DNA from: Pseudozobellia thermophila | GTDB taxonomy: Bacteria; Bacteroidota; Bacteroidia; Flavobacteriales; Flavobacteriaceae | Direction of reading: 5' to 3' | Length of the DNA stretch: 64,000 nt | Assembly: GCF_900141855.1 (NCBI RefSeq) | Contig: NZ_FQYU01000002.1 | Coordinates: forward strand, 248,001-312,000 | Shown here: positions 27,460 through 45,060 of the stretch, piece by piece | Position numbering within the stretch: the stretch's first letter is position 1 | How the letters are laid out: each line of letters begins with the position of its first letter | Translations under genes and position numbers: made by a program | Notes under the pieces: model-generated | The model's input: the letters and a program-made list of their open reading frames with translations, nothing else | Databases searched by the model: none | Told to the model about the DNA's origin: nothing

Positions 27460-27474
27460 AAAAACTACCGTACA

Positions 27475-28302: not shown

Positions 28303-28342
28303 ACGCAAGGCTAATATAGCCCCTCCCTAAAATTTCAATAAA

Positions 28343-28687
28343 ATGACCCGAACAAAGCGCTTCTGCTATTCGTGCGACTTAAAGAACGACCCCGAACTGA
28401 TCGAGGAATACAAGGCCCACCATGCACCGGGCGCCGTTCCCGAGGCCATCGTAAAAAGCATCAAGGATGCGGGAATAGAGAACATGGAGATTTACCTGAC
28501 CGGCAACCGGATGTTTATGATCATGGAGGTCAACGAAAGCTTCGACCCGGCCAAAAAGGCCGAAATGGACGCCAACAACCCCGCCGTCCAAAAGTGGGAA
28601 GAACTCATGTGGAAATTCCAGCAAAGTCTGCCATGGGCCGAAAAGGACGAAAAATGGATTGCCTTGGAGAAGATATTTCAACTTTAG
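28343..28687 (+). CDS. L-rhamnose/L-fucose mutarotase-like protein (DUF718)
   Basis: A 114-residue protein of the RhaM/DUF718 fold. It opens with the typical YSCDLKNDPELIEEYKAHH block with the catalytic histidine region, then MEIYLTGNRMFMIMEV and the C-terminal NPAVQKWEELMWKFQQ block. It interconverts sugar anomers, feeding the beta form to the dehydrogenase. Members found with oxidative fucose genes are L-fucose mutarotases, whereas E. coli RhaM acts on L-rhamnose. It ends the three-gene plus-strand run and converges with the FAH-family gene 37 bases away. Confidence 0.88.
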   Translation: MTRTKRFCYSCDLKNDPELIEEYKAHHAPGAVPEAIVKSIKDAGIENMEIYLTGNRMFMIMEVNESFDPAKKAEMDANNPAVQKWEELMWKFQQSLPWAEKDEKWIALEKIFQL

Positions 28688-29690: not shown

Positions 29691-30497
29691 ATGTTCGGCA
29701 TCAAAGACAAGATTGCCATTATTACCGGCGCCAGTGGATCCCTGGCAGGTAGCATTGCCAAAAGCTTTGCCGAGGCCGGTGTAAAGTTGGCCCTGCTCAC
29801 CCGCAAAGAATCGTCCCTTGCCGGTTTAATGGCCGAAATTGATTCAGTGGGCGGATATGCCAAGGCTTACGAGGCGGATATTTTGGATGAAAAATCCCTA
29901 GGGGAGGTAAAAGACCAAATACTATCCGATTTTGGGCGAATAGACATTCTTCTGAATATTGCGGGAGGCAACCTTCCCGGTGCGACCATCGGGGTCGACA
30001 AAACCATTTTCGACCTTTCGATCGACGCCTTTAGAAAGGTTACCGACCTGAACCTTAACGGTACGGTTATCCCTTCCATTGTTTTTGGGAAGGTGATGTC
30101 GGAGCAAAAGGAAGGGGTCATCATCAATTATTCCTCTATGGCCGTAGATCGTGTCATTACCAGGGTTGCCGGATATTCCGCATCCAAGGCCGCCATGGAG
30201 AACTTTACCCGATGGATGGCCGTGGAAATGGCCTCGAAGTTCGGTGAGGGCATTCGTGTGAACGCCGTGGCACCTGGTTTCTTCATCGGAAAACAGAACA
30301 GGGCCCTTTTGACCAATGAAGACGGATCCTATACCCAAAGGGGCGAGGATATCATCAGGAACACGCCCATGGGCAGGTTCGGGGAAATCGAAGAGCTGAA
30401 CGGTGCCGTACAATTTTTATGCAGTGATGCCGCCAAGTTCATTACGGGAATCGTATTGCCCGTAGACGGCGGGTTTAGTGCATTTAGCGGGGTATAA
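29691..30497 (+). CDS. uxuB: SDR-type D-mannonate oxidoreductase
   Basis: A 268-residue short-chain dehydrogenase with TGASGSLAGSIAKSF at residues 12-26, GGNLPGAT at 92-99, catalytic Ser148/149, Tyr162 and Lys166 (GYSASKAAMENFTRW), and the GFFIGKQNRALL and PVDGGFSAFSGV blocks typical of the YjmF-type fructuronate reductases. These reduce D-fructuronate to D-mannonate. The next gene, 54 bases downstream, is mannonate dehydratase, which confirms the pathway. A role in the L-fucose branch as 2-keto-3-deoxy-L-fuconate dehydrogenase is less likely given these family-specific blocks. Confidence 0.85.
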   Translation: MFGIKDKIAIITGASGSLAGSIAKSFAEAGVKLALLTRKESSLAGLMAEIDSVGGYAKAYEADILDEKSLGEVKDQILSDFGRIDILLNIAGGNLPGATIGVDKTIFDLSIDAFRKVTDLNLNGTVIPSIVFGKVMSEQKEGVIINYSSMAVDRVITRVAGYSASKAAMENFTRWMAVEMASKFGEGIRVNAVAPGFFIGKQNRALLTNEDGSYTQRGEDIIRNTPMGRFGEIEELNGAVQFLCSDAAKFITGIVLPVDGGFSAFSGV

Positions 30498-30551: not shown

Positions 30552-31754
30552 ATGGAACAAACATGGCGATGGTACGGGCCAAGCGATCCCGTAAGCCTTC
30601 AAGACATCAGACAAGCCGGTGCAACGGGTATCGTTACGGCCTTACATCATATCGCGAACGGGGAAGTCTGGCCCATTTCAGAAATCGAGAAGCGAAAAAA
30701 GCATTTAGAGGACAACGGACTGGTATGGTCGGTGGTCGAATCACTGCCCATCCACGAAAACATCAAGACCCAACAAGGCGAATACAAAAAATACATCGAA
30801 AATTACAAGGAGAGCCTAAGGAACCTGGCCGCCTGCGGTGTAAAAACGGTATGCTACAATTTTATGCCCGTATTGGATTGGACGCGTACCAGCCTCGATT
30901 TTGAAGTCGAAGATGGCTCAAAGGCCCTTTCCTTTGAATTTGCCGCCTTGGCCGCCTTTGACCTCTTTATCCTAAAAAGGCCAAATGCCGAGGCCACCTA
31001 TACCGAGGCCCAAATCGCGGAGGCCAAAAAACGTTATTCGGCCATGTCGGAAGAAGACATCTGGCAGCTGGTAAAAACCATTATTGCGGGGCTTCCCGGT
31101 TCTTCGGAGGGCTATCCCGTGCCTGAGAAGGGCTTCGACCTGAGCAAGTTCCAAACCATTTTGGATACCTATAATTCCATTGGCGAAGACGAAATGAGGG
31201 ACAGCCTGGTTTACTTTTTACAGGAAGTAGTCCCGGTCGCCGAGGAAACCGGGGTACGGCTCTGCATCCACCCCGACGACCCTCCGTTTTCTATCTTGGG
31301 ACTCCCACGTATTATGGGTACCGAAGCCGATTACGCCTATATTTTCGATAAGGTAAAATCGCTACATAACGGAATTACGTTTTGTACGGGATCCTTGGGA
31401 GCGCGTGAAGACAATAATATTCCGCAAATGTTCAAAAGGTTCGCCGACCGCGTACATTTTCTTCATTTGAGAAGCACCAAACGCGATGGCAAGGGCAACT
31501 TCTACGAGGCCAACCACCTAGAAGGCGACGTACCGATGTACGAATTGGTCAAACTGATTCTGGCCGAGGAAAAAAGAAGGAAGGAAGAGGGCCGGGAAGA
31601 CAGTCAGATTCCGATGCGGCCCGACCACGGCCATCAAATGCTCGACGACCTCCATAAAAAAACCAATCCCGGTTATTCCGCCATTGGCCGCTTGCGCGGG
31701 TTGGCAGAATTACGGGGATTGGAATTGGGTATTCGAAAGTCGTATTTCGAATAA
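30552..31754 (+). CDS. uxuA: Mannonate dehydratase
   Basis: A 400-residue mannonate dehydratase, close to the usual length. It converts D-mannonate to 2-keto-3-deoxygluconate (KDG). Visible blocks are [16 protein letters not shown] at the start, [17 protein letters not shown] with metal-site His and Asp, and the C-terminal [11 protein letters not shown]. It follows the SDR uxuB and converges, with only five bases between stops, on the KDPG aldolase and KDG kinase genes that process its product. No uronate isomerase (UxaC) is present in the window. Confidence 0.93.
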
Positions 31755-31759
31755 ACGGT

Positions 31760-32428
31760 TTAACTTCTAATACGCTTGATCAAGGCCAAGGTATCTTTTA
31801 CCTTGGCTTCAAGACCGGCATAATCCTTATTGGCAAGTATTTCCTTGCTTATCAACTGTGAGCCCATGCCCACGCAGGTTACACCGGCACCGAACCAGCC
31901 TTTCAAGTTTTCCTCTTCGGTACTGACACCTCCCGTCGGCATTATGCTCGTCCATGGTTGCGGACCTTTAATGGCCTTTACAAAACCCGGACCATAGGTA
32001 GAGCCCGGGAACAATTTGATGATCTCGCATCCCAGCTCCTCGGCCCTGTTGATTTCGGTAAGCGTACCACAACCCGGGGACCAAAGCACCTTCCTTCGGT
32101 TACAGGCGATCGCGATGTCTTCGCGCAAGGTAGGGGTAACGATAAAGTTAGCCCCCATTTGCATAAACATACTGGCCGCACCCGCATCGGTAATGGATCC
32201 GACCCCCATGATCATTCCGGGCAGTTCCTTTAGGGCAAACTTGTTCAGTTCCAGAAATACCTCAAAAGCAAAATCGCCGCGGGCGGTAAACTCGATCAAT
32301 CGCGCCCCCCCGTCATAGCATGCTTTCAAAACTTTCTTGCCCAATTCGATATCGGGATGATAAAACAGAGGTACCATTCCGGTCTCCTCCATCACCTGGG
32401 CTACTTCAATTCTTGAATACTTGGCCAT
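31760..32428 (-). CDS. eda: KDPG aldolase (bifunctional KHG/KDPG type)
   Basis: A 222-residue class I aldolase that splits 2-keto-3-deoxy-6-phosphogluconate into pyruvate and glyceraldehyde-3-phosphate. The Schiff-base lysine is Lys138 (EIIKLFPGS) and the catalytic acid/base is Glu46 (IEFTARGD). Length and motifs are normal for the family. It is the last of eight genes on the minus strand starting with SusC, and follows KDG kinase by 69 bases. Confidence 0.92.
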   Translation of the reverse strand: MAKYSRIEVAQVMEETGMVPLFYHPDIELGKKVLKACYDGGARLIEFTARGDFAFEVFLELNKFALKELPGMIMGVGSITDAGAASMFMQMGANFIVTPTLREDIAIACNRRKVLWSPGCGTLTEINRAEELGCEIIKLFPGSTYGPGFVKAIKGPQPWTSIMPTGGVSTEEENLKGWFGAGVTCVGMGSQLISKEILANKDYAGLEAKVKDTLALIKRIRS

Positions 32429-32497
32429 AATTGTCAGTGAATAGTTATAAGTGAATAGTTAAAAGTTTATAGTTATAAGTTAATAGGGTTGGGACCT

Positions 32498-33538
32498 TTA
32501 TCTCGCCACCCTTCCGGAAGCATCGCCCCCCATAAGTTTTTCAACCTCGGCCACGGTTACCAGGTTGGCGTCGCCCTTGATGGTGTGTTTTAGACAAGAT
32601 GCGGCAACCGCAAAGTCGAGGGCGTTCTGGTCGTCGTCCGGATACTTCAGCAAGCCGTAGATCAAGCCTCCCATAAACGAATCGCCACCGCCGACCCTGT
32701 CTACAATATCGGTAATTTGGTATTGACGGGTCTCGTACATTTTCTCCCCGTCGTACAATACGCCCGCCCAGGTATTGTGCGATGCGGATATGGAGCCCCT
32801 TAAAGTAGTGATTACTTTCTTGGCCTTGGGGAATTTTTTCATCATTTGCTTACATACCGACAAAAAGGCCTCCGCCTTCACATCGTGCCCGTGCTTGTGA
32901 ACATCGAGTCCTTCGGGGTGAATGCCAAAATGCTTTTCGGCATCTTCTTCATTGCCCAGAATAATATCGCAATACGAAGTAAGTTCGGTCATAATGGCCT
33001 CCCTATCCCCGCCATAGTTCCAAAGTTTGGCCCTGTAGTTCAGGTCGGTCGAAATGGTGATGCCCTTTTCGCTTGCCTTTTTTACGGCCTCGAGACAGAC
33101 GTCGGCGGCACCTTGCGAAATGGCCGGTGTGATACCGGTCCAGTGGAACCATTCGACCCCTTCAAAAACGGCATCCCAATCGATCATTCCCTTTTCGATT
33201 TCGGCAATGGCGGAGTGGGCCCTATCGTAAACGACCTTACTGCCACGGCTTACGGCGCCGGTTTCCAAAAAGTAGATGCCCAGGCGATCGCCCCCATAAA
33301 TTATCTTATCGGTACCGACCCCTCTTTTTCTCATTTCCATGAGGGCACATTCACCGATATCGTTTTTGGGCAATCGGGTAACAAAATCAACGGGCACGCC
33401 ATAATTGGCCAATGAAACCGCCACGTTGCTCTCGCCACCACCGTACACCACGTCGAAACTATTGGTTTGCGAAAATCTTAAAAACCCTGGAGGGGACAAT
33501 CGTAACATAATTTCCCCAAAAGTCACTACTTTTTTCAT
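32498..33538 (-). CDS. kdgK: 2-keto-3-deoxygluconate kinase (PfkB family)
   Basis: A 346-residue sugar kinase of the PfkB family. The N-terminal substrate motif is VVYGGGESNVAVSLANYG, and the ATP/anion-hole motif is DRVGGGDSFMGG with the catalytic aspartate; the first G replaces the more usual A, a common variation. It phosphorylates KDG to KDPG. KDPG aldolase lies directly downstream, and mannonate dehydratase converges from the other side, so KDG is the likely substrate. Other 2-keto-3-deoxy acids are possible. Confidence 0.9.
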   Translation of the reverse strand: MKKVVTFGEIMLRLSPPGFLRFSQTNSFDVVYGGGESNVAVSLANYGVPVDFVTRLPKNDIGECALMEMRKRGVGTDKIIYGGDRLGIYFLETGAVSRGSKVVYDRAHSAIAEIEKGMIDWDAVFEGVEWFHWTGITPAISQGAADVCLEAVKKASEKGITISTDLNYRAKLWNYGGDREAIMTELTSYCDIILGNEEDAEKHFGIHPEGLDVHKHGHDVKAEAFLSVCKQMMKKFPKAKKVITTLRGSISASHNTWAGVLYDGEKMYETRQYQITDIVDRVGGGDSFMGGLIYGLLKYPDDDQNALDFAVAASCLKHTIKGDANLVTVAEVEKLMGGDASGRVAR

Positions 33539-33742
33539 TATCTATTAATTATTTATGTTCGCTTTTCACGAAGATAAAGGTTATTTTTTGATAGGCCGAA
33601 AATAAAGATTTACTCTAAAATATCAGAAGGAAAGATTTACAAATACGGCAATCGATATTCCTATAACAATAATTCATGGAATTGAGATATTTTTTCCCTT
33701 CATGAGGGATTAACCCCGCCCAAAAGATGAAGAAGTGTCCAC

Positions 33743-34846
33743 TTATTGTTCGTCGACGAGGGGTTTTACCCGTACTTCAGGGGGTCTTTTGTGCCAGTAG
33801 GAAGCCAGGATGGAACCGGTGATGTTCATCAGCGGACCGAAAACGGCCGGTGCGAGGCCCATGGTGGCGATTTTGCCCAAAGAATTGGCAATTCCCGAGG
33901 CAAGTCCGCCGTTCTGCATACCGACTTCGATCGCTATGGTACGGGAATCCTGCTCCGACATCCTAAAAAGTTTGGCGAAGCCATAGCCCAAACTATAGCC
34001 AAATACATTGTGGACCAATACCAATACCATCAAAAGCCCCCCAATATCCAGCAGGCTATCCCTGCCAGCGGCAGTTATAATCGTGATAATTATGCCTATG
34101 GCCAACATGGAAACAATGGGCATGGCCCTATCGAGCCATTTGGTCTTGAACAATTTATTAAAGAGGAGTCCGGCCCCGATCGGCAGTATGATCATTTTGG
34201 TGATGCTCCACATCATATCCAATACATCGATTTCGATAAACTCCCCGGCCAATAATTTCATCAAAAGCGGGGTCAGAAAGGGGGCCAATAAGGTGGCGAT
34301 GGACGTAATGGTAATCGAAAGGGCCAAATTGGCCTTGGCGAGATAGGCCATAACATTCGATGCCACACCACTTGGCGAACATCCGATCAGCACGATACCG
34401 GCGGCGATCTCGGGCGGAAAATCACTTATTTTGGCCAAGGCAAAACCGACAATGGGCATGATCAACAATTGGGCCGCCACCCCGATCATTACGCCTTTCG
34501 GGGTCTTAAATACCGAGGCAAAATCCTTGATGCTCATCGAGGTACCCATACCGAACATTATGATCTGTATCAAGGGTATGATCAGGGCCGTTAGCTTAAA
34601 GCCCCCTACCACGGTGAAGAAATGGGGGTAATACAATGCGGCGGAGACCCCGGCAAAAATCATGGTGGTAAATACGAGTCCGTTCAAGGTTTTATAACCG
34701 CTGAAGCCCAAGGCCAGAAGGGCAAAAAACAGTAAAAACGGTAGGCCTCCCTGTTCAAGTCTGCCTGAAAGCAACAAGCCGATTATAGAGACCAACAAGA
34801 CCGCTGCAATGCCCAAGCTAATGGAATAGAGATTGATTTTTTTCAA
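33743..34846 (-). CDS. BASS-family Na+-coupled organic acid carrier
   Basis: A 367-residue inner membrane protein with about ten membrane segments and the two BASS (bile acid:sodium symporter) signature regions: GCSPSGVASN and EVGMQNGGLASG, which form the substrate and Na+ sites. BASS proteins move monocarboxylates such as pyruvate, pantoate and bile acids. It sits between the exported dehydratase/RraA/SnoaL genes and KDG kinase on the same strand, so it probably imports a sugar acid or its 2-keto-3-deoxy product. That substrate is inference. A 204-base gap separates it from kdgK. Confidence 0.85.
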   Translation of the reverse strand: MKKINLYSISLGIAAVLLVSIIGLLLSGRLEQGGLPFLLFFALLALGFSGYKTLNGLVFTTMIFAGVSAALYYPHFFTVVGGFKLTALIIPLIQIIMFGMGTSMSIKDFASVFKTPKGVMIGVAAQLLIMPIVGFALAKISDFPPEIAAGIVLIGCSPSGVASNVMAYLAKANLALSITITSIATLLAPFLTPLLMKLLAGEFIEIDVLDMMWSITKMIILPIGAGLLFNKLFKTKWLDRAMPIVSMLAIGIIITIITAAGRDSLLDIGGLLMVLVLVHNVFGYSLGYGFAKLFRMSEQDSRTIAIEVGMQNGGLASGIANSLGKIATMGLAPAVFGPLMNITGSILASYWHKRPPEVRVKPLVDEQ

Positions 34847-34859
34847 GATAGGAATGTTT

Positions 34860-35294
34860 TTACATGAGTTTATAGGCTTGTCGGGCCAGTAGGCGCCACT
34901 CGTTGTTCTTCTTCTGCCAGGTCATCATTACCCCGATGCGCACATCGGCATCCTTGCCGTCGTTGGTACCTTTGGCCACGAAAATGTGCCTAACGATACC
35001 CACGTCGCCAGATATGGCTATGGTCTGGTCTTCGGGCAGGATCGAAAAAAAATCAAAGGGGCCCTTCAACACCGCTTCGATATATTCTTCCTTATTTTCC
35101 AGTGTCCCACTCGAATGACCATAGGTGAGTTTATCGTCGGTCAATTTTTGAAGTGCGGCCCCATCCCTGGCGACCATGGCCGCATAGAGGGCCCCTACCC
35201 CTGTTTCTATGTTCTTTTTATCGGTATTTGACTGGGCTTGGACACATGCGGTAAACAGGCCAAGAAAAGCGTATAGGTAAATTGTTTTTTTCAT
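34860..35294 (-). CDS. Exported SnoaL/DUF4440-like protein
   Basis: A 144-residue protein with a Sec signal peptide (MKKTIYLYAFLGLFTACVQAQ region) and a small SnoaL/NTF2-like fold. Recognisable blocks are YAAMVARDGAALQKLTDDKLTYGHSSG and the final strand VMMTWQKKNNEWRLLAR. The ATG at 35294 is used; a TTG two codons upstream gives a poorer signal. It stands 13 bases from the carrier gene and 35 from the RraA-like gene, so all three are co-transcribed. SnoaL-like proteins can be small isomerases, hydratases or binding proteins. Confidence 0.8.
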   Translation of the reverse strand: MKKTIYLYAFLGLFTACVQAQSNTDKKNIETGVGALYAAMVARDGAALQKLTDDKLTYGHSSGTLENKEEYIEAVLKGPFDFFSILPEDQTIAISGDVGIVRHIFVAKGTNDGKDADVRIGVMMTWQKKNNEWRLLARQAYKLM

Positions 35295-35329
35295 TGTCAA
35301 ATGGTGTGTTTATACTGGGCCAATATTTA

Positions 35330-36265
35330 TCAATAGCCCGCATTTTTTATATAATCGTCGAGTTCCTTCCGTGTCATCGGCAGCTGGTTGTCGGGATAGT
35401 TCTTCAACCACTGTACGAAATCGGCCTTAATGGCGTCGGTCCATTTGGTATCGATTTGTCCCGGAGTATAGGTTTTCTCACGGAGCCGCTGAAACCCGAA
35501 CTGGTCCCTAAGTCCGACAACCTCGGAGGAGAGCACCAGTTCCGCAACCAAGTGCGAGGGTATAAAGATGGTCCCGTGCCGATTGGCCAATACCACATCG
35601 CCCGGCAATACGATGGCCCTTCCGATCCGTATCGGTGTGTTGATCTCGGTAAGCATTTGTTCGGCGAGGTACGATGGATCATCACCCCGGTACCAGCCGT
35701 TAAAGCCCTCGATATCGAGAAGTCCGGCCACATCGCGCACCCCACCGTCAAAGATGAAACCGTTTTGCGAATTCGCGTAAATGGCATTGCCCAAGTTCGA
35801 TCCGATCAATGTCCCGTCTATGATCCGGCCATATCCGTCCGCTACATAGACATCACCGGGCTGTAGAATTTCGATCGGCCAGGAGTTGCTCCCTCCAATG
35901 GTATCGCGATTTTCCGCGCCCCCCTTTACCTTGATCAGTTGCTGATAATCGGGGCGCAAGGGGGTGTATTGGGCGGTAAGGACGCGGCCCGTCATCACCT
36001 GTCCGGGATGCAATATTTTCCAATTGCCATCGTACTGGTTGTTATACCCCTTGCGGCGCAAATAGCCCCAGGCCTCCTCGATCTGAATGTTCTTGAGACG
36101 CTTTAATAGGGCATCGGACACTTTGGGCCTTCCGTCAGGAAAACGCTCCCCTTGCCAATCGGCGGTCAACTCCTTGATATATCCAGGGGTTGCAGCAACA
36201 CCTTGGGCAGAGACCGAGAATGTCATAAAAGCAAAAACCATCCCTAAAAATAACTTTATTTTCAT
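35330..36265 (-). CDS. Exported RraA-like protein (aldolase-family fold)
   Basis: A 311-residue protein with a Sec signal peptide (cut near residue 20, VSAQG). It carries the RraA/HMG-aldolase fold: PGDVYVADGYG near 137-146, LGNAIYANSQNG, and the DGGVRD motif with Arg177 and Asp178, which in this family hold the substrate carboxylate and the metal. RraA relatives include 4-hydroxy-4-methyl-2-oxoglutarate aldolases that cleave 2-keto acids to pyruvate. An exported form with about 60 extra N-terminal residues is unusual. The enolase-family dehydratase encoded upstream could make its 2-keto acid substrate in the periplasm. Confidence 0.82.
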   Translation of the reverse strand: MKIKLFLGMVFAFMTFSVSAQGVAATPGYIKELTADWQGERFPDGRPKVSDALLKRLKNIQIEEAWGYLRRKGYNNQYDGNWKILHPGQVMTGRVLTAQYTPLRPDYQQLIKVKGGAENRDTIGGSNSWPIEILQPGDVYVADGYGRIIDGTLIGSNLGNAIYANSQNGFIFDGGVRDVAGLLDIEGFNGWYRGDDPSYLAEQMLTEINTPIRIGRAIVLPGDVVLANRHGTIFIPSHLVAELVLSSEVVGLRDQFGFQRLREKTYTPGQIDTKWTDAIKADFVQWLKNYPDNQLPMTRKELDDYIKNAGY

Positions 36266-36353
36266 TTGTAGTGTATTTATACTGTTAATCTAAACTGTTT
36301 TTAACGATTTTAGCGGACAACGCAATATTTTTTAATGGTAGAAGGCCAAGGTA

Positions 36354-36396
36354 GTTGAACATCCCCGATTAAGATTAAATAATCGGGGTGCTCAAC
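36354..36396 (-). other. Strong hairpin between the dehydratase and RraA-like genes
   Basis: A perfect 9-bp stem CCCCGATTA (36363-36371) / TAATCGGGG (36380-36388) with an 8-base loop is extended by GTTGA / TCAAC arms (36354-36358, 36392-36396) across a small internal loop. On the minus strand no T run follows directly, so it is not a standard terminator. It may be an mRNA processing or stability element that sets different levels for the genes on either side. Confidence 0.5.
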
Positions 36397-36469
36397 GGCA
36401 ACCAAACCAACTCAAACAAAATTCTAAGATCTAATTTGCTATGGTTTGCTCTTCTATACCTCAATTGGT

Positions 36470-37969
36470 TCAACTATAGGTGCGGTCGTGCGATTGCAGT
36501 GCATTCCATTGATCGGTAGGGGCAAAATAACTCTTGTCTTTCGGATGTACGTGCTTTTTCAGCACCTCCTCGTTCAGTTCGATGCCCAGGCCAGGAGCCG
36601 TTAGCGGCACGGTGGCAAAGCCCTTGTCGATCATTTTAAAGCCGCCTACGGTAGTAACCAGGTCTTCCCACCAGGGCAGGTCGACCGAATGGTGCTCAAG
36701 GGCCAAGAAATTCTGTGAGGCCGCGGCACAATGTACGTTAGCCATAAAGGAAACGGGAGTACCCGCTTGGTGCATGGCCATGGCGATACCAAATTCCTCG
36801 GCATAATCGGCAATTCGCTTGGTCTCCAAAAGACCGCCCGAAGAGGCCAGGTCGGGGTGCACGATATCTACGGCCCGCTCATGAATAAGCGGTAAAAAGT
36901 CTTTTAACAAATAGATATCCTCCCCGGTAGTGGTCGGGGTTTCGATAGACCGGGTTATTTCCTTCCATTGTTCGGTGTATTGCCAGGGTACCATATCTTC
37001 AAACCATGCCAAACGATATTTTTCGAGGGCCTTGGCCAAACGAATGTTATTGTTCATATCGAAATGTCCGTAATGGTCGGTAGAAATAGGAATCTCATAT
37101 CCTACCATATTCCTGACGTCCTCTACCACTTGCTGCAAATGCTCAAGGCCTTTTTCGGTAATCTGTATTTGGGTAAACGGATGCATGGTATTGCCATAGG
37201 ACATAAAGTTTCTACGATCCCCCCACTGGTTGAGGTTGCCTTTCGAATCTTCCCAAAACTTGCCGTTGACAACCGTATCCTTCATTCCCTTCAACTCGGC
37301 TATCGACACATCCATCTTTAACCAGGTATACCCCTGTTCCTTTACCCTGAAATTGATCAGGCGCTGCTGTTCCTCGGGAGAGCTGGCCTCCGGGGTGTCG
37401 GCGTAGAGTCTAACCTTGTCCCTGTACCTACCTCCCAAAAGTTGCCATGCGGGCACATTGTAGGCCTTGCCGCATAAATCCCACAAGGCCATTTCAACGG
37501 CGCAGACCCCCCCGGCCTGTCGGGCCGGGCCACCAAATTGTTTTATACTTTTAAAGATCTTTTCAACATTGCAGGGGTTTTTACCCAAAATCCGACTTTT
37601 AAGCATCAGGGCATACCTAACATCACCGGCATCCCGCACTTCTCCCAGACCGTGAATACCTTGATTGGTCTCGATCTTTATGATGGGCGTACCCCCCATC
37701 ACATTGGTCACCACATAGCGCATATCGGTAATCTTCAATTCGGAGGGGGCCGATGCCCTGTTTACCTTTGAAGTGGTTTCGGCCACCCGGTCTTCGAAGG
37801 AATAGCCCATAAAACTCGATAGTGCTATACCCCCCAAGGCGGTTTTCTTTAAAAAATTTCTTCGGTCGTCACCGGTTTTTGGGTCTTTTATCTCCGCCTG
37901 CAGCGAATCGGCATAGGCTTTTTCCTCTTTCTTGCTTTTAGCTATGAGCTCTTGTAACGTGTTCTTCAT
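36470..37969 (-). CDS. Tat-exported enolase-superfamily sugar acid dehydratase
   Basis: A 499-residue protein. The first 55 residues hold a charged leader and a twin-arginine signal (DRRNFLKK, Arg36-Arg37) with a hydrophobic stretch. The rest is a mandelate racemase/enolase-superfamily enzyme of the galactonate/mannonate dehydratase kind: Lys218-x-Asp220 on the first active-site strand, metal ligands probably Asp298, Glu324 and Glu350, and a His400/Asp373 dyad. The segment after Asp298 reads HYGH rather than the FHGR of galactonate dehydratase, so specificity may differ. It should dehydrate an aldonate to a 2-keto-3-deoxy acid, in the periplasm. It follows SusD by 34 bases. Confidence 0.85.
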   Translation of the reverse strand: MKNTLQELIAKSKKEEKAYADSLQAEIKDPKTGDDRRNFLKKTALGGIALSSFMGYSFEDRVAETTSKVNRASAPSELKITDMRYVVTNVMGGTPIIKIETNQGIHGLGEVRDAGDVRYALMLKSRILGKNPCNVEKIFKSIKQFGGPARQAGGVCAVEMALWDLCGKAYNVPAWQLLGGRYRDKVRLYADTPEASSPEEQQRLINFRVKEQGYTWLKMDVSIAELKGMKDTVVNGKFWEDSKGNLNQWGDRRNFMSYGNTMHPFTQIQITEKGLEHLQQVVEDVRNMVGYEIPISTDHYGHFDMNNNIRLAKALEKYRLAWFEDMVPWQYTEQWKEITRSIETPTTTGEDIYLLKDFLPLIHERAVDIVHPDLASSGGLLETKRIADYAEEFGIAMAMHQAGTPVSFMANVHCAAASQNFLALEHHSVDLPWWEDLVTTVGGFKMIDKGFATVPLTAPGLGIELNEEVLKKHVHPKDKSYFAPTDQWNALQSHDRTYS

Positions 37970-38003
37970 TTTTAGTAGTGTTTTTTTGGTTATATCGATT
38001 CCG

Positions 38004-39536
38004 TTATTGATCCCACCATACCTTGGTCTCGAGGTTATCGGGGCCCATTCGGGATACTGCGGCGCTTAGGTTTTCGTTGTTGGTCGCCACCTCTGAATTG
38101 GGGTAGGTCAACCGATTTATAAATGGTGTGCCGATATCCTGGGCAGGATATGGGTTGCTATCAAGGTCGGGAAACCCGCTTCGGCGAAAGTTGGCAAAGG
38201 CCTCGGGTCCGTTTAAAAAACACGATACCCAATATTGGTTGTTTATTTGTTCAATGGCATTGCCCGCATCAAAGGGATTGTCGGCCAGATACGTTTGAAT
38301 GTCCACATCGGCTATCGCAACCTCCTCGTCGTACTCGGCCATCAGCTGCATATGTGCCGTAACCCCTTGGTTGTAGTAATCCTCGGGATTGCCCGTAACC
38401 CATCCGCGAACGGCGGCCTCGGCCAACAAGAGTTGGGTTTGGCTGTAGGTTAGCACATAAATTGGGGCCGTTTGCTTGGCCACCCTAAAGCGGTCTATTT
38501 GCGTAAAATCGTAAAAACTGGCCAAACCGAGGTCGTCGACTACCGTTCCGATGGTACCGTTGTCGTAGCCCAAGGGCATGCCCACTTGCTCCGCGGGATC
38601 TTTGGACCCTGTTTCTATGACCTGTTCGGGTCCCGAGGTAGCCCCGGTAAACCTCAAGGCCAACGACATAAGCCTGGGATCGTTCGTATCCCGTAGAAAT
38701 TCGACAAAGGTATCGACCATATAAAAGTTGTTGGCCTCGGTAGAATTCAGCAAAGACCCCGCATTATTGGTATAATTGCTATCGTGCCTGATGGCGTAAT
38801 TATCTTCATTGGATTGCATAAGTCCGCCACCAAAGGCCTCTGCCACGGTCTGTTCCGCCAATGAGGGATCGACCTCCGACAGGCGCATGCCCAATCGCAA
38901 TAACAAGGAATACCCAAAACGTTTCCATTTGCCAATATCGCCCGAGTACAATACTTCGCCCTTTTCGGCGGGAGCACTTTCGCTGAGGCCGGCACTGGCC
39001 TCCCTCACCTCTTTGATAAGGTCTGCGTAAATGGCTTCTTGGGAATCGTACCGGGGCAATACGATCTGTTCGGTAACCCCTTTACCCGCTTCAAAATAAG
39101 GGATATCGCCATATTCATCGGTCAAGATCATAAAGGTCAGGGCCTGGATCAATCGGGTCATGTGGAGTAAATTGGGTCTATCGGGAGCATCTTCGGCCTG
39201 TAACTGGCCTATGATGTCGCCCGTATTCTTAATCACGTTCTCGTAATACTTCACCCAATGGTCGTCGGTAACATCGCGGTTATCCTGATTGTAATTGGCA
39301 CCGGTAAGCACACCTGAGTTGGGAGAAATGACCTGTTGCACCACACCCATGTCAAAAATGATCTGCGCATTTGAAAACGAGGTGTTGACAATCGCGTTGT
39401 TCAATAAAAATATGGGATCTACACTATCGCTGGTCGGGTCGACCACATTGGTGTTTATTTCGTCGAAGTTCTTATCACATGAGATGACGAGGAAGAGGAC
39501 TCCTAACGTCAAAAATCTATTTATTGTGTTTTTCAT
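38004..39536 (-). CDS. SusD/RagB-type outer membrane lipoprotein
   Basis: A 510-residue lipoprotein with signal peptide and lipobox ending at Cys20 (LVISC). The sequence after it (DKNFDEINTNVVDPTSDSVD) and the helical TPR-like body with RLIQALTFMILTDEYGDIPYFEA fit the SusD-like_2 subgroup. It acts as the substrate-binding lid of the SusC transporter at the cell surface. The C-terminal block with YWVSCFLNGPEAFANFRRSGFP is also typical. Its gene starts 11 bases after SusC on the same strand. Confidence 0.93.
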   Translation of the reverse strand: MKNTINRFLTLGVLFLVISCDKNFDEINTNVVDPTSDSVDPIFLLNNAIVNTSFSNAQIIFDMGVVQQVISPNSGVLTGANYNQDNRDVTDDHWVKYYENVIKNTGDIIGQLQAEDAPDRPNLLHMTRLIQALTFMILTDEYGDIPYFEAGKGVTEQIVLPRYDSQEAIYADLIKEVREASAGLSESAPAEKGEVLYSGDIGKWKRFGYSLLLRLGMRLSEVDPSLAEQTVAEAFGGGLMQSNEDNYAIRHDSNYTNNAGSLLNSTEANNFYMVDTFVEFLRDTNDPRLMSLALRFTGATSGPEQVIETGSKDPAEQVGMPLGYDNGTIGTVVDDLGLASFYDFTQIDRFRVAKQTAPIYVLTYSQTQLLLAEAAVRGWVTGNPEDYYNQGVTAHMQLMAEYDEEVAIADVDIQTYLADNPFDAGNAIEQINNQYWVSCFLNGPEAFANFRRSGFPDLDSNPYPAQDIGTPFINRLTYPNSEVATNNENLSAAVSRMGPDNLETKVWWDQ

Positions 39537-39547
39537 GATGCTCTCCT

Positions 39548-42500
39548 TTAAAATTTGCAGTTAAGGTTCAAACCAATGCTTCTTGTCGTCGGAACACCGG
39601 TAGATTCGAGGCCCGATACATTGTCAGAACTGTAGCCGAACGAATCGGGGTCGATATTGGGAACCCATTTTTTAATGATGAAAACATTGTTTGCGAACAA
39701 GCTGAGGCTTACGCCCTTAAAGAAGGTTTGGTCCCTTAAAAGATTCGAGAAATCGTACCCTAGGGTCAGTTGCCTGAATTTCCAATAACCGCTGTCGTAT
39801 ACAATGGGCTCTATAAGCTGCTGTGACCTTACCACCTCCCAATAGGTTTGGGCCGGTGTACTGGCCGTATTGGGTTCCCCGGCTTGGTTGACGCCATCTC
39901 CGGTAACACCGCCTTCCCTACCTTCGAGGGTCATTTTATGGAGTCCGTGACGGGTAGCGTTGAAATTCGTTCCCGAGATCATTTTGCCCCCCAACTTAAA
40001 ATCGATCAAGAACGATGCGTTGAAATTCTTGTACCTGAAGGCATTGGTTATACCCCCGACCCACTTGGGCAGGGCACTTCCGAAGAAAACGATATCGTCG
40101 GAGCGAAGGGGCCGACCATCATCGGCAAAAATCTGCCGTCCTTGGTCATCAAATTTGTAGCCGAAGCCCGCCAACTGGCCGATCTCCTCACCGACGACTT
40201 GGTACAAAAATCCATTGAAGGCATGGGTACCGACCACTATACTTTCACCCGGGGTATCGGTAAGCAGGCTAATGACCTCGGTCTTGTTGTAAGAGGTGTT
40301 CAGGGTCAGTTCCCACTGAAAATCCTCGTTTCTGACCGGTATCAGGCTTAAGAGGGCCTCAACCCCGTCGCTTCGGCTCTCCCCGCTATTGATCAAGGTG
40401 CTTATAAAGCCGGAGGCATTTGAGATTTGTGCGGGTATGATCTGGTCGAAGGTCGATTTACGGTAAACACTCAGGTCGAGATTTACCCGCGAATCGAACA
40501 TGCGCAGATCGATACCGATTTCCGTTTCCTTGACCCGCATCGGCCTTAGGTTCGGATTGGGCAAGGTACTGGTGTTCGGTGCCGCCACAGGCTGTAATTG
40601 CCCGTCTGAATTGGCGAAAAGGTTCGAATTGATATTGTAGAACAATGCGTCGGAATACGGCGGCACATCGGTATCGCTGCCCACTTCGGCATAGGCTGCC
40701 CGCAACTTCCCGAAAGTCAGCCACTCCGAATCTTCGAAGGCGTTGGAAAACACGTAGCTGGCAGAGACCGAAGGGTATAGGATGCTCCTGTTGTCGGGGG
40801 CCAAGGTCGTAAACCAATCGTTCCTTAAGGTCCCACTCAAATAATAGGTGTCTTTGTAGGAAAGGTCCATTGAACCGTACAAGGAGTTTACCCCTCTCTC
40901 CGATAGGCTATAGATCGGGTCTTTGACCCTGCCGTTCTGTACCGTGTAAAGATCCCGGATAATGAAGTCGGTGACGTTCACCCGATTGAGCTTCGAAACC
41001 CTTCTCATTTTGTTGCCCCCAAAGTTGACTCCCAGGCCGAAATCGTCGCCGAATTCCTTGTTGGCCGAAATCAGGAAGTCTACATTGGTTTCCCTAAACC
41101 TACGCACCTCTTGGGTATAGGTACCGTTCACGAAACCTTCCGGGGCCGGAGGCCTGGACGCCTGTCCGGTAGGATAGCCGTTATAATCCTGGTCCCTCGA
41201 CCAGTAATCTTGGCCCACCCTAATCTGGCCAAATAGCCATGGTAAAAAATTGTACTTCAGGGAGGCATTGCCAAAAATGCGATCGCGCTCGATGTGGTTG
41301 AATTGCTCGCTAAGGGTAAAATAGGGGTTGGTCCTATTTCTAAAGCGCGAATACACGAATTCATTTCCGTTCTCGTCGAACTTCTTCTCGTCCAAAAGGT
41401 CCAAGGGCATGGAATTGGCCATATTGTACAAGGCCACCGATATGGTATTGTCTTGTTGGCCTACATTGGGCGGATTGGTGTTCTTTTCGTTGGAATAATT
41501 GATATTGGTGGTAAAGGACAAGCTTTCGGTCAGTTCGTAACTCGCCCCCAATCCCACATTGATGCGTTTGAACTCGTTGTTGGGGGTAATGCCCTTACTT
41601 TCGAGGTTGGACAGGGATAGATTAAAGCCCCCTTTTTCCCCGTTGCCCGAAAGGCCGATGGAGTTGGTAATGTCCAAGCCGTGTCGGTAGAACTTTTTGA
41701 TCCTGTCGTACACGGGAACATAGGGTACCTCGACCCCATCGAACAATACTTGGGTCATTCCGGGTTCAAATTTTTCACCAAATGACCATTGGCCCGAGGT
41801 AGGGTTGGCCGTGGTGGGTCGTACCCCATTTTCGCCCTGTCCGTACTCGTATTGGTAGTCGGTAAAGTCCAAAGGAGTATGATCGGCCACGCTGAGGTTG
41901 TAGGTGACCCCGATACCTTGGCCGGTGCCCCTTGTTTTGGTAGTGATCATAATTACCCCGTCTTTGGCCCTAGACCCATAGAGGGCAGCGCCCGTGGCTC
42001 CTTTTAGAATGGTCATGCTTTCGATATCATCGGGATTGATACTTGAAAAGCCGTCACCCCCGTCGGAGTATACCCCTCCGCTGCTAGTGCCCAGTTCGCC
42101 ACTTCCGCCCGAACTACCGATATTGGTTCCAAAGCTGGTATTGTCGATGGGCACACCGTTTACCACGATCAAGGGATTATTGGTGCCCGAAATGGACGAT
42201 TGCCCCCTGATCCGCACTTTGGAAGAACCTCCGGGCCCGGTGCCCAAGGCCGAGACATTTACCCCTGCCACCTTGCCTTGCAGGGTGTTCATGAAATTTG
42301 ACGAGCGGTTGACATTTACATCCTCGGCATCGACCTTGGCCACGGAATAGCCCAACTTTCGGGTTTCTTGCTTGATTCCCAATGCGGTGACCACCACTTC
42401 GTCGAGGGACTCCGAATCTTCGGCAAGTTGGACATCGATCTTGGTCGATTCGCCCACCGGAACTTCCTTGGTGGCAAAGCCCAAGGAACTGAAGACCAAT

Positions 42501-43045
42501 GTGGCATTGGCACCCCGTGTGGTAATCGAATAATTTCCGTTGAAGTCGGTAGCCGTGCCATTGGTCGTACCTTTTTCCACCACCGAAACACTAGGCAAGG
42601 GCATGCCTTGGGCGTCGGTAACAATCCCCGATATCTCTTGTTGTATGTCGCCGGCCCCCAAGGTTTTGGCCCGAATTCCCAAAGTACCTTGTGTCAGGAT
42701 AATTTGGGTATCCAAAATCTCGAATGTTATGGGCGTGCCCTTGAACAAATCGGAGAGTACCCCGATCAACGGGGCCTTTACATAGCTTACGCTAACCTTT
42801 CTGTTGTAGTTTACCTGGTTATCGTTGTACAACACCTTAAAATCGGTCAGTGACTCAATTTCTTGCAAAACCTTTTCTATGGTTACGTTCTGCAGTTGAA
42901 GGGTGATTTCAATATCAGCCGAAGACGGGTTTCCTAGCGCTTGATAGAATATGATCGCAATAAGGCCGATGCTAAGTTTCATTTTTCGCTGTAACGGTAT
43001 TGGATAGGCAATATTCCCCCTTATCCAAGTGACTGGGTTTTTCAT
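39548..43045 (-). CDS. SusC/RagA-type TonB-dependent transporter with STN domain
   Basis: About 1165 residues from the ATG at 43045 (MKNPVTWIRGNIAYP); the frame is open to 43099 but the extra residues do not look like a signal. Domains in order: signal segment (KLSIGLIAIIFYQALG), an STN secretin/TonB short domain (about 45-115), a CarboxypepD_reg-like domain with SVVEKGTTNGTATDFNGNYS, the plug with VRIRGQSSISGTNNPLIVVNG and TILKGATGAALYGSRAKDGV, and the barrel ending GLNLNCKF. The STN domain means it signals through the FecR/ECF sigma pair encoded upstream when ligand binds. Confidence 0.93.
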   Translation of the reverse strand: MKNPVTWIRGNIAYPIPLQRKMKLSIGLIAIIFYQALGNPSSADIEITLQLQNVTIEKVLQEIESLTDFKVLYNDNQVNYNRKVSVSYVKAPLIGVLSDLFKGTPITFEILDTQIILTQGTLGIRAKTLGAGDIQQEISGIVTDAQGMPLPSVSVVEKGTTNGTATDFNGNYSITTRGANATLVFSSLGFATKEVPVGESTKIDVQLAEDSESLDEVVVTALGIKQETRKLGYSVAKVDAEDVNVNRSSNFMNTLQGKVAGVNVSALGTGPGGSSKVRIRGQSSISGTNNPLIVVNGVPIDNTSFGTNIGSSGGSGELGTSSGGVYSDGGDGFSSINPDDIESMTILKGATGAALYGSRAKDGVIMITTKTRGTGQGIGVTYNLSVADHTPLDFTDYQYEYGQGENGVRPTTANPTSGQWSFGEKFEPGMTQVLFDGVEVPYVPVYDRIKKFYRHGLDITNSIGLSGNGEKGGFNLSLSNLESKGITPNNEFKRINVGLGASYELTESLSFTTNINYSNEKNTNPPNVGQQDNTISVALYNMANSMPLDLLDEKKFDENGNEFVYSRFRNRTNPYFTLSEQFNHIERDRIFGNASLKYNFLPWLFGQIRVGQDYWSRDQDYNGYPTGQASRPPAPEGFVNGTYTQEVRRFRETNVDFLISANKEFGDDFGLGVNFGGNKMRRVSKLNRVNVTDFIIRDLYTVQNGRVKDPIYSLSERGVNSLYGSMDLSYKDTYYLSGTLRNDWFTTLAPDNRSILYPSVSASYVFSNAFEDSEWLTFGKLRAAYAEVGSDTDVPPYSDALFYNINSNLFANSDGQLQPVAAPNTSTLPNPNLRPMRVKETEIGIDLRMFDSRVNLDLSVYRKSTFDQIIPAQISNASGFISTLINSGESRSDGVEALLSLIPVRNEDFQWELTLNTSYNKTEVISLLTDTPGESIVVGTHAFNGFLYQVVGEEIGQLAGFGYKFDDQGRQIFADDGRPLRSDDIVFFGSALPKWVGGITNAFRYKNFNASFLIDFKLGGKMISGTNFNATRHGLHKMTLEGREGGVTGDGVNQAGEPNTASTPAQTYWEVVRSQQLIEPIVYDSGYWKFRQLTLGYDFSNLLRDQTFFKGVSLSLFANNVFIIKKWVPNIDPDSFGYSSDNVSGLESTGVPTTRSIGLNLNCKF

Positions 43046-43182
43046 ATCTTTGTTCGAATTTAGATGGTTATCATTAGTGTATATCACTCTAAATCGCAAT
43101 CGGGAAATGTGCCAGCATTTTCCGATTTTTTTTGATTTGAAGTGTTGGTTTTACAGCATCTTCATATCATAGGCATCTCTTT

Positions 43183-44340
43183 TTAAGGTTGGTAAATAAT
43201 GATCCTGTCCCCATTTATCGTAAAGGTCATGGGGTAGTTTTTGCTAAAGGCCTCAAATACCTGGGTAATGGTCTCGGTGTCGAAACTGGCATTGAAGCGT
43301 ATCGGGTTCAAGGCTTCGTACTGGTTGTCTATGCTGACATTATAGTTGCGCTCAAGCTTTTTGACGATGTCTTCGAAGGGCATATGGCTAAAAATAATCT
43401 TGCCGTTCATCCACCCGGTATGCAGGTCGGTGTCTACCTCCTTGAACACGAGTTTTTGGTCTTGTTTGCCCCATACCGCCATTTGTCCGGGAACCAAGCG
43501 CTTTGAATCTTCATCGAAGTCCGAAGATGTCGTAAAAAAGCCCACCGACCCTTCGACCAATACCGTTTTTACGCTATCGTCTTCGGGATATGCCGATAGG
43601 TTGAACTTGGTGCCCAAAACCTGAATGTTCAATTCGTTGGCATTGATAATAAAGGGGCTGGTTTCGTCCTTGGCCACGTTAAAATAGCCCTCCCCCTTCA
43701 AATAGACCTTTCGCTCCCTGCCCCTGACAAATTCGACCGGATATCTTAAGGTGCTTCCTGCATTGAGATGGGCCTTGGTACCATCGGACAGGATCAGGAC
43801 GAACCTTTTGCCATAGGGCACGTTTACCGTATTGTAGAGAATTTCCTTGGCCTTGCCGCCTTTGTGGTAAACCAGTTGGTTGCCTTGCAACAGACCTACC
43901 CGGTCGCCCTTCCTGTTATAAACCGATGCATTGCCCAGCTCTGAAATTGTTTTTACGGTTCCATCGGACAGTTCCAAGGTAATTTGGTCGCCCTTGTCCA
44001 CATTTCCCACGGTGCCCTGTCTAAAGTTGTGGTCCCAGTAGAAATACCCTAGGCCGAGAAATGTCAGTAGTACTGCGGCATACCTTGTCAATCGGAACAG
44101 GTTCGACCTTCTGGCCGAGCGTTTATCGCGGCGGATCTTGTCCAACAATATTCTTTTGGCTTTATCCGCATTATATCTACCCATAATATATCTTGTCGTG
44201 TAATCTATCTCTATATGCGACCGAAAGAGCTTGTGATAACGGCCCCGCGTTAGGCACAGGTTCAAATCGTCCAACTCTTCCGAAGCGATGGAATGCGACA
44301 AAAACTTAGCTAGGGAAATTTTAAAATCACACTTGTCCAT
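43183..44340 (-). CDS. FecR-type anti-sigma factor
   Basis: A 385-residue single-pass membrane protein. The cytoplasmic part (1-85) binds the sigma factor, the membrane segment is about residues 86-103, and the periplasmic part has a FecR domain (VNVPYGKRFVLILSDGTKAHLNAGS, GEGYFNV) and a C-terminal DUF4974 domain (MPFEDIVKKLERNYNVSI). It passes the signal from the STN domain of the SusC protein, encoded 137 bases downstream, to the ECF sigma factor. It is divergent from the sigma gene, whereas in most such systems sigma and fecR are co-directional. Confidence 0.93.
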   Translation of the reverse strand: MDKCDFKISLAKFLSHSIASEELDDLNLCLTRGRYHKLFRSHIEIDYTTRYIMGRYNADKAKRILLDKIRRDKRSARRSNLFRLTRYAAVLLTFLGLGYFYWDHNFRQGTVGNVDKGDQITLELSDGTVKTISELGNASVYNRKGDRVGLLQGNQLVYHKGGKAKEILYNTVNVPYGKRFVLILSDGTKAHLNAGSTLRYPVEFVRGRERKVYLKGEGYFNVAKDETSPFIINANELNIQVLGTKFNLSAYPEDDSVKTVLVEGSVGFFTTSSDFDEDSKRLVPGQMAVWGKQDQKLVFKEVDTDLHTGWMNGKIIFSHMPFEDIVKKLERNYNVSIDNQYEALNPIRFNASFDTETITQVFEAFSKNYPMTFTINGDRIIIYQP

Positions 44341-44451: not shown

Positions 44452-45060
44452 ATGAACATTGATTACAACAACAACGGGATTTTAATCCAGCACCTAAAAA
44501 ACGGCCAAGAAAAAGCCTACGAATATTTGGTGGAGACTTACCACCATAGGCTCTGCGTCTATGCCAACAGCCTGGTCAACGACAAGGACCAAGCCGAGGA
44601 TATCGTACAGAATGTTTTTATCCGCACCTGGGAAAGAAGGTATAACCTTAAGCCCACTTTTACCATTAAGAGCTTTCTCTACAAATCGGTGCATAACGAG
44701 TTTATCGACCAATACCGGAAACAAAAATCGGTTACCGCCCTTGAAAAAAAATACATCGAGGAGCTGGAAAGGTTTTCGGAAAAGGATGAAGTGTTTTTTG
44801 AACGGTTATTGTCAATCGTTCAGGAAGAAATTCAAAACCTGCCCCCGAAATGCAGAAAAATTTTCTTGATGAGCAAGCAGGAAGGGTTTAGCAACATCGA
44901 GATCGCCGAACATCTGAATCTTTCCCAAAAGACCATAGAATATCATATTACCAAGGCCTTTGCCATACTCAGGCAGAAGGCCAGCCGCGATTTGGAACCG
45001 GTCTTGTTCCTCTTGTTCGGTTTCAACAAGAATAGGAAAATGGCATCTCCAACGGCTTAA
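44452..45060 (+). CDS. ECF RNA polymerase sigma factor, FecI/SigW type
   Basis: A 202-residue ECF sigma factor. Region 2 has DKDQAEDIVQNVFIRTWERR, and region 4 has NLPPKCRKIFLMSKQEGFSNIEIAEHLNLSQKTIEYHITKA with the helix-turn-helix. It should direct RNA polymerase to the SusC/D genes when released by FecR. It is transcribed away from fecR with 111 bases between the starts, a gap likely to hold both promoters. The C-terminal tail (LFLLFGFNKNRKMASPTA) follows region 4 and is not a known domain. Confidence 0.92.
   Translation: MNIDYNNNGILIQHLKNGQEKAYEYLVETYHHRLCVYANSLVNDKDQAEDIVQNVFIRTWERRYNLKPTFTIKSFLYKSVHNEFIDQYRKQKSVTALEKKYIEELERFSEKDEVFFERLLSIVQEEIQNLPPKCRKIFLMSKQEGFSNIEIAEHLNLSQKTIEYHITKAFAILRQKASRDLEPVLFLLFGFNKNRKMASPTA

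Follow-up and report, generated by a model that had tools for sequence, protein, structure and literature searches.

The flavobacterium Pseudozobellia thermophila carries a run of eight genes at positions 31760-43045, minus strand, of the window, the 64,000-nt stretch analyzed here (NZ_FQYU01000002.1, positions 248,001 to 312,000). The genes encode, in this order, SusC, SusD, an enolase-superfamily enzyme (hereafter the enolase), an RraA-like protein, a SnoaL-like protein, a carrier of the bile acid:sodium symporter (BASS) type, 2-keto-3-deoxygluconate (KDG) kinase and 2-keto-3-deoxy-6-phosphogluconate (KDPG) aldolase (Table 1). An earlier, sequence-only reading had listed the same genes in the same order on one strand, and had proposed that they take up sugar acids that are dehydrated in the periplasm. 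The gene list held, as all eight genes lie on the minus strand and each matches at least one Pfam family above its cut-off. SusC starts with the ATG at 43045, as that reading gave; the open reading frame (ORF) list had taken an upstream TTG at 43099.

Despite the SusC/SusD pair, Pfam places no glycoside hydrolase or polysaccharide lyase among the eight genes, and we do not class the run as a polysaccharide utilization locus. It does have the genes expected of a semi-phosphorylative Entner-Doudoroff pathway, with KDG kinase and KDPG aldolase beside a dehydratase-like gene. Because two gaps of 204 bp interrupt the run, between the enolase and RraA genes and between the BASS and kinase genes, a single transcript for the eight genes is unproven.

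Table 1. Features of the gene run and its neighbors in the window
Feature	Position	Strand	Basis and remarks
SusC/RagA TonB-linked outer-membrane porin with STN domain	39548..43045	-	TIGR04056, 646 bits, over cut-off; Pfam plug, STN and carboxypeptidase-regulatory domains
SusD-like surface lipoprotein	38004..39536	-	SusD-like_2 PF12771, 275 bits
Enolase-superfamily (MR_MLE) enzyme, proposed exported sugar-acid dehydratase	36470..37969	-	PF13378/PF02746; twin-arginine translocation (Tat) motif RRNFLKK at residue 36
RraA-like protein, predicted exported, Sec-type signal	35330..36265	-	PF03737, 61.5 bits
DUF4440/SnoaL-like small protein, predicted exported	34860..35300	-	PF14534, 66 bits; SnoaL_3 barely over cut-off
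BASS-type carrier, proposed importer of the product (or aldonate)	33743..34846	-	SBF PF01758, 140 bits over 24.3
KDG kinase	32498..33538	-	PfkB; best solved relative KDG kinase 2afb, 1.3e-100
KDPG/KHG aldolase	31760..32428	-	NCBIfam NF005499, 378.5 bits, cut-off 275
FecR-type anti-sigma regulator, upstream of SusC	43183..44340	-	PF16344, PF04773; within the run in 40/80 species loci
Extracytoplasmic function (ECF)-type sigma factor, divergent from the FecR gene	44452..45060	+	Sigma70_r2, Sigma70_r4_2
Mannonate dehydratase UxuA, signal-less, convergent neighbor, would also make KDG	30552..31754	+	TIGR00695, 587 bits, over cut-off
D-mannonate oxidoreductase-type short-chain dehydrogenase/reductase (SDR; UxuB role), neighbor	29691..30497	+	NF006132, 358.8 bits, cut-off 281

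Export signals of the enolase, RraA-like and SnoaL-like proteins

We searched for the Tat motif as the pattern RRx[FLIVM][LIVMF] within the first 100 residues. It was present in 97 of 99 relatives of the enolase sharing at least 49% identity, and the two misses are ORFs without the N-terminus. TatC is encoded in the window genome (220 bits). A signal-like hydrophobic segment was found in all 114 complete relatives of the RraA-like protein, in 46 of the 47 complete SnoaL-like proteins and in 13 of 16 complete members of the pyrroloquinoline quinone (PQQ) dehydrogenase group described below. None of 63 cytosolic control proteins had such a segment (KDG kinase 0/16, KDPG aldolase 0/13, UxuA 0/9, FAH 0/15, UxuB 0/10). 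The segments were called by a hydropathy rule of our own rather than by SignalP; the rule also flags membrane proteins (BASS 55/55) and passes just 3 of 13 Tat UxuA-like proteins. On this evidence, export of the enolase by Tat, and of the RraA-like and SnoaL-like proteins, is well supported at the sequence level, in agreement with the sequence-only reading.

The twin arginines of the enolase are preceded by residues 1-35 (37865-37969, minus strand), a stretch that is kept in the printed relatives above about 70% identity and far shorter in distant ones; a helix is predicted over residues 2-27. UxuA-family proteins encoded in two other loci (L115, 6394-9887; L155, 13186-15452) have N-termini of the NRRxF type or TRRDF. 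By these motifs, UxuA seems to be a second TIM-barrel family exported beside the enolase.

Conservation of the gene set in Bacteroidota

Gene neighborhoods were compared in a named set of 80 loci, the best 80 of 169 confirmed relatives from a close-relative scan, which by title are mostly from Flavobacteriaceae and Algoriphagus. Genes on the same strand with gaps below 400 bp were counted as a run, and 20 loci overlapping the named set (L029-L048) were excluded from the counts. Contig ends leave less than 8 kb on one side in 27 of the 80 loci. Where ORFs overlap, our caller retains the longest and discards the rest, so genes are present at least as often as counted and the number of changes on the tree is overestimated; the enolase and RraA genes of L152 and the SusD genes of L093, L094 and L115 were lost in this way though found with tblastn.

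An RraA-like gene stands in the run around the enolase in 74 of 80 loci, and in 51 of the 53 whose flanks extend 8 kb or more in both directions. A pairing this frequent among species loci goes beyond chance. The other run members are BASS (50 of 80), SusD (45), SusC (42), SnoaL (41), FecR (40), a second enolase (33), KDG kinase (14), KDPG aldolase (12) and PQQ dehydrogenase (12). Kinase and aldolase occur together in 12 runs, none of which has a signal-less UxuA among its named genes. By gene content and predicted signals, the conserved unit is the exported enolase with the exported RraA-like protein, and the remainder is a changing set.

The exact eight-gene order is found in 4 of 80 loci (L067, L068, L069 and L102), all in one clade with the window on the enolase tree, and the RraA gene lies directly upstream of the enolase gene in 24 loci and after it in 48. 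Two arguments for the earlier proposal were dropped on these counts: conservation of the eight-gene order, which is confined to near relatives, and a gene order that mirrors the path from outer membrane to cytoplasm, which is not general. On a tree of 97 enolases, the state changes at least 10 times for KDG kinase and at least 7 times for PQQ dehydrogenase, numbers inflated by contig ends and lost ORFs. These changes speak for a repeated association of both genes with the enolase, as far as the sequences tell. The enolase itself was found in 21 of 299 family genomes (E 1e-100) and 15 of 395 phylum genomes (1e-80), the window genome being counted in both.

Three loci from Pedobacter/Sphingobacterium metagenome-assembled genomes (L123, L124 and L127) have roughly six enolase-family ORFs that are consecutive or almost consecutive; several of these ORFs contain an RR pair that does not fit the Tat pattern. 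L123 and L127 also carry RraA and Tat UxuA-like genes. AGE-family (cellobiose 2-epimerase-like) proteins are encoded near the enolase in L156 (12498-13868), L157 (12435-13829) and five more loci (cluster c23), and a signal-like segment is present in 6 of 6 complete members.

PQQ dehydrogenase and lactonase genes in sister loci

A gene for a PQQ sugar/alcohol dehydrogenase lies between the SnoaL and BASS genes in L099, L100, L101 and L125. In L104 it follows the SnoaL gene and precedes a BASS fragment and the contig end. Pfam assigns the L104 protein a PQQ match of 601 bits and a cytochrome c domain (Cytochrome_CBB3), and it scores 442 bits with the NCBIfam glucose/quinate/shikimate family, under the cut-off of 832.65. 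A gluconolactonase-like (SGL) cluster occurs in six loci. It shares the strand of the run in L155 and L157 and lies on the opposite strand in L087, L088, L090 and L107; Pfam was run on the L107 and L155 members, and both complete members have signal-like segments.

The fullest arrangement is that of L155, from another family code in the same phylum. One strand encodes RraA, a Tat enolase, BASS, a second Tat enolase, a PQQ dehydrogenase-cytochrome c protein, SGL with a lipobox-like start, KDG kinase and KDPG aldolase, and a SusC-like protein, SusD and two Tat UxuA-like proteins lie on the same strand. L157 has RraA, enolase, BASS, enolase, PQQ dehydrogenase and SGL; neither a kinase nor an aldolase gene was seen in the sequence viewed. 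PQQ dehydrogenase homologues were found in 8 of 9 enolase-bearing family genomes versus 11 of 140 others (Fisher 1.3e-7, uncorrected for relatedness), a comparison that takes its 149 genomes to be those with handles G000-G148. Judged by these predicted functions, the sister loci supply the oxidation and lactone-opening steps that the earlier proposal lacked.

Proposed periplasmic route and points against it

A recurring Bacteroidota gene set with a predicted exported enolase and RraA-like protein suggests that sugar acids undergo extracytoplasmic processing and are then imported. We consider a periplasmic, oxidative, Entner-Doudoroff-like sugar-acid route the best explanation of the set, at about even odds (a probability of roughly 0.5). 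From the gene content, order, export signals, recurrence and co-occurrence observed, we infer its reactions and substrates and the direction and cargo of BASS. SusC and SusD would move a small sugar or sugar acid across the outer membrane, and in the sister loci a periplasmic PQQ dehydrogenase and the gluconolactonase-like protein would make an aldonate in the periplasm. The Tat-exported enolase would convert the aldonate to a 2-keto-3-deoxy acid in the same compartment, where the RraA-like and SnoaL-like proteins would act on the same substrate or product pool. BASS would import the resulting acid, and cytoplasmic KDG kinase and KDPG aldolase would yield pyruvate and glyceraldehyde 3-phosphate. 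The periplasmic dehydration put forward in the sequence-only reading thus retains the export signals and the recurrent link to KDG kinase, KDPG aldolase and BASS in its favor, and loses gene order as a general argument.

The enolase has both MR_MLE domains, N and C, and its metal ligands are kept in the alignment of 100 rows (D298 in 99/99, E324 in 98/98 and E350 in 98/98, gaps aside); H400 and E425 are also conserved. Its best family scores all belong to dehydratases, namely GalD, gluconate/galactonate dehydratase and ManD.

Several observations weigh against the periplasmic route. The residue two positions after D298 corresponds to the histidine of the DxH motif, whose role is known from GalD and ManD. 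It is Tyr300 in the window enolase and Y in 85, W in 6, T in 5 and F in 3 members of the group; it is His in the aligned solved relatives 2qq6, 2ox4 and 2gl5 and in 33 of 40 paralogues (26-38% identity), the type to which the second enolase gene of many runs belongs. In the main enolase group, two other histidines, His299 and His302, do not vary and might replace the missing one. The window enolase scores below all NCBIfam dehydratase cut-offs (NF010624 (GalD) 186.7 of 311, NF040790 169.4 of 750, NF043051 158.9 of 550), and the NCBIfam Tat-signal model TIGR01409 matched neither it nor the L155 enolase at E 0.001; the model did match the UxuA-like neighbor in L122. KDG kinase is absent from 66 of the 80 runs and BASS from 30. 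Seventeen runs have RraA without the SusCD pair, BASS, KDG kinase or PQQ dehydrogenase, and five have none of these. The window operon is without a PQQ dehydrogenase, and the single homologue of the genome is encoded elsewhere; an SGL gene lies about 5 kb from it. The kinase and aldolase could serve the adjacent uxuA/uxuB. GntP-type permeases score over cut-off in 8 of 8 genomes checked, and a cytosolic aldonate route is, by gene content, probably also present. ASBT_NM, the nearest solved BASS protein, binds pantoate, a 2-hydroxy acid, but not ketopantoate (PubMed Central, PMC; PMC10645422).

A wider version of the proposal places, for the Bacteroidota with this gene set, the whole upper oxidative Entner-Doudoroff-like pathway in the periplasm, from PQQ oxidation through lactone opening and dehydration to an RraA step on the 2-keto-3-deoxy acid, with BASS importing the keto acid. 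We put it forward tentatively, as possible rather than probable. If it were so, the inner membrane would carry the product of the pathway and not the sugar or sugar acid.

Alternative roles of the RraA-like protein, enolase and carrier

The RraA-like protein is the most constant partner of the enolase, yet the earlier proposal gave it no role. Its model (pLDDT 92.5) is close to 3k4i, RraAS2 (5x15) and the HMG/CHA aldolase (3noj). The metal-dependent pyruvate lyases of the RraA family have the motif D-X20-R-D. R177 is kept in 118 of 118 sequences and D178 in 117 of 118; at the first position of the motif the window protein has Ser, as do 45 of 61 close relatives, and 56 of 117 relatives have Asp. 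R177 and D178 align with Arg-123 and Asp-124 of the HMG/CHA aldolase, residues whose roles are described in PMC5065237. As FlDet, an RraA-family protein of a Flavobacterium, is reported to be a 2-keto-3-deoxy-glucarate dehydratase/decarboxylase (PMC8563752), the family is able to act on 2-keto-3-deoxy acids. By this analogy, the RraA-like protein could plausibly act on the enolase product in the periplasm, and such a step may explain the loci without KDG kinase.

Such a step could also end the pathway. Both lyases would then be periplasmic, the enolase making the 2-keto-3-deoxy acid and RraA splitting or dehydrating it as a metal-dependent pyruvate lyase; BASS would import pyruvate or a small 2-oxo acid, and KDG kinase and aldolase would be a side branch. 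The constancy of RraA (74 of 80 runs versus 14 of 80 with KDG kinase), the match of its Arg-Asp pair to that of the HMG/CHA aldolase (PMC5065237), the activity of FlDet (PMC8563752) and the cargoes of the plant carriers, pyruvate for BASS2 and 2-keto acids for BASS5 (PMC10645422), all favor this scheme. We nevertheless regard it as unlikely: KDG kinase and KDPG aldolase recur without uxuAB in L100, L111, L113, L115 and L155, where the sequence extends past the aldolase gene, and the first Asp of the lyase motif is Ser in the window protein and most close relatives.

The carrier is compatible with several cargoes. Its nearest solved relative is ASBT_NM (8oyf, 4.3e-64), and it scores 225 with NCBIfam TIGR00841 and 218 with PanS, both under the cut-offs. 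Membership of BASS, a family that includes the plant proteins as well as the pantoate-binding ASBT_NM, does not discriminate among aldonate, KDG and pyruvate.

An aldonate as cargo would fit a different role for the enolase, that of an exported sugar-acid epimerase or lactone cycloisomerase, with dehydration in the cytosol. The enolase model (pLDDT 85.7) best matches 2qq6 (Z 47.4, root-mean-square deviation 1.8, 369 aligned residues; Foldseek, VIA-align 2), which is titled MR/MLE-like without a named activity, and dehydratases, cycloisomerases and epimerases rank behind it. We dropped the assignment of a reaction by fold, as no function follows from matches spread in this way. This spread and the loss of the DxH histidine agree with an epimerase or cycloisomerase, and so do the preference of ASBT_NM for a 2-hydroxy acid (PMC10645422) and the GntP permeases and under-cut-off IlvD/Edd genes of the eight genomes checked. 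On the other hand, the best family scores of the enolase are those of dehydratases throughout, and the 12 runs with both KDG kinase and aldolase lack a signal-less UxuA among their named genes; we judge this role quite unlikely.

Other sugar-acid genes in the same genome

Seven enolase-family genes were found in the window genome. Two have the Tat motif, the window gene and one on contig C18, and each of them neighbors an RraA-like gene; no further RraA-like genes were found in the genome. In the five others, the 90 residues displayed contain no Tat motif. No SusCD or BASS gene accompanies the second pair of an exported-type RraA and a Tat enolase (L167, 11020-13350) within the 20 kb read.

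Conventional layouts resembling the DeLey-Doudoroff pathway are present too. In L170, a signal-less galactonate dehydratase (609.9 bits, cut-off 311) is encoded beside a GntP permease, and L171 has, in order, GntP, a signal-less enolase, an aldehyde dehydrogenase-like gene (by sight), DGOK kinase and aldolase. Judging from predicted signals, the cytosolic and exported layouts exist side by side in this genome, and thus the exported set need not be the sole aldonate route. Edd was over cut-off in none of the eight genomes and weaker IlvD/Edd-family matches occurred in all eight. With these matches and the GntP permeases, we dropped the argument that other aldonate routes are absent.

A second KDG kinase, 94% identical to that of the window, is encoded on contig C15 in a locus with cupin, SDR, SusCD and major facilitator superfamily genes (L169). 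This locus looks like one for alginate use; no alginate lyase was identified there.

Neighboring genes and regulation

The uxuA gene converges on the run, with its end 5 bp from the aldolase gene. The kinase and the aldolase might serve uxuA/uxuB in a glucuronate route, and their place after the SusCD, enolase and BASS genes would be incidental. The uxuA-aldolase neighborhood is kept in L067, L068, L069, L074, L084, L092 and L102, and the 204-bp gap between the BASS and kinase genes is also in line with this view. However, the kinase-aldolase pair stands without uxuAB in L100, L111, L113, L115 and L155 (in L112 and L125 the sequence stops too close to the aldolase gene for a decision), and we consider an incidental placement very improbable.

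An STN domain on SusC, as in the window protein, is a usual sign of control by a sigma/anti-sigma pair. The -33/-7 pattern is the Bacteroidetes promoter, and no exact match to it was found in window positions 14101-53849. Promoter and terminator scans were discarded as evidence, as the numbers of sites were near those in shuffled sequences (26 versus 17.5, standard deviation 4.5; 16 versus 17.3). The gap between the enolase and RraA genes contains an inverted repeat, CCCCGATT...AATCGGGG, at 36363-36388 (minus strand), without a T run after it.

Positions 26446-28687 (plus strand) encode a Zn-dependent dehydrogenase, an L-fuconolactonase-like amidohydrolase (271 bits, cut-off 400) and a RhaM-type mutarotase, which look like the start of an oxidative route for a 6-deoxysugar or pentose. 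Several relatives of the run carry a 2,5-dioxovalerate dehydrogenase-like aldehyde dehydrogenase (cluster c16; under cut-off), which suggests a Weimberg-type pentonate branch beside the operon as part of the picture.

Comparison with known systems

Among the titles and abstract openings of the matches listed from the open-licence PMC literature, we found no report of periplasmic aldonate dehydration with SusCD and BASS. The DeLey-Doudoroff or semi-phosphorylative Entner-Doudoroff pathway uses the same three kinds of gene as the window, for a dehydratase, KDG or 2-keto-3-deoxygalactonate kinase and KDP aldolase. The window differs from it in the Tat motif of the enolase and in the proposed place of the carrier, downstream of dehydration.

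In acetic acid bacteria, 3-dehydroquinate dehydratase acts in the periplasm, and the products of glucose largely stay in the medium. We know of no SusCD or BASS in that system. Its membrane PQQ dehydrogenases oxidize sugars in the periplasm, as proposed for the sister loci, and 3-dehydroquinate dehydratase, which belongs to a different family from the enolase, is used for the conversion of quinate to 3-dehydroshikimate (PMC8102297).

The flavobacterial alginate route (alginate lyase, DEH reductase, KDG kinase and KDPG aldolase) shares its last two enzymes with the window, but in that route DEH passes into the cytosol, where KDG is formed and consumed (PMC5334617). The oxidative chitin pathway of Pseudoalteromonas prydzensis resembles the proposed route in TonB-dependent uptake, a periplasmic step, an aldonic acid and an end at KDG 6-phosphate; however, an SSS carrier imports the aldonic acid and the conversion is cytoplasmic (PMC9537276). 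FlDet, too, is an RraA-family protein of a flavobacterium, and it is reported to act on a 2-keto-3-deoxy sugar acid; the window protein, however, has a signal-like N-terminus, and the word 'periplasm' is absent from the FlDet paper (PMC8563752).

If the proposed periplasmic route is correct, carbon-backbone chemistry that is usually cytosolic would shift to the periplasm in a subset of Bacteroidota, and sugar oxidation would be coupled to respiration through a quinohaemoprotein. The route would also provide a set of unnamed Tat enolases and exported RraA-like proteins with a function, and a group of bacterial BASS carriers with a cargo.

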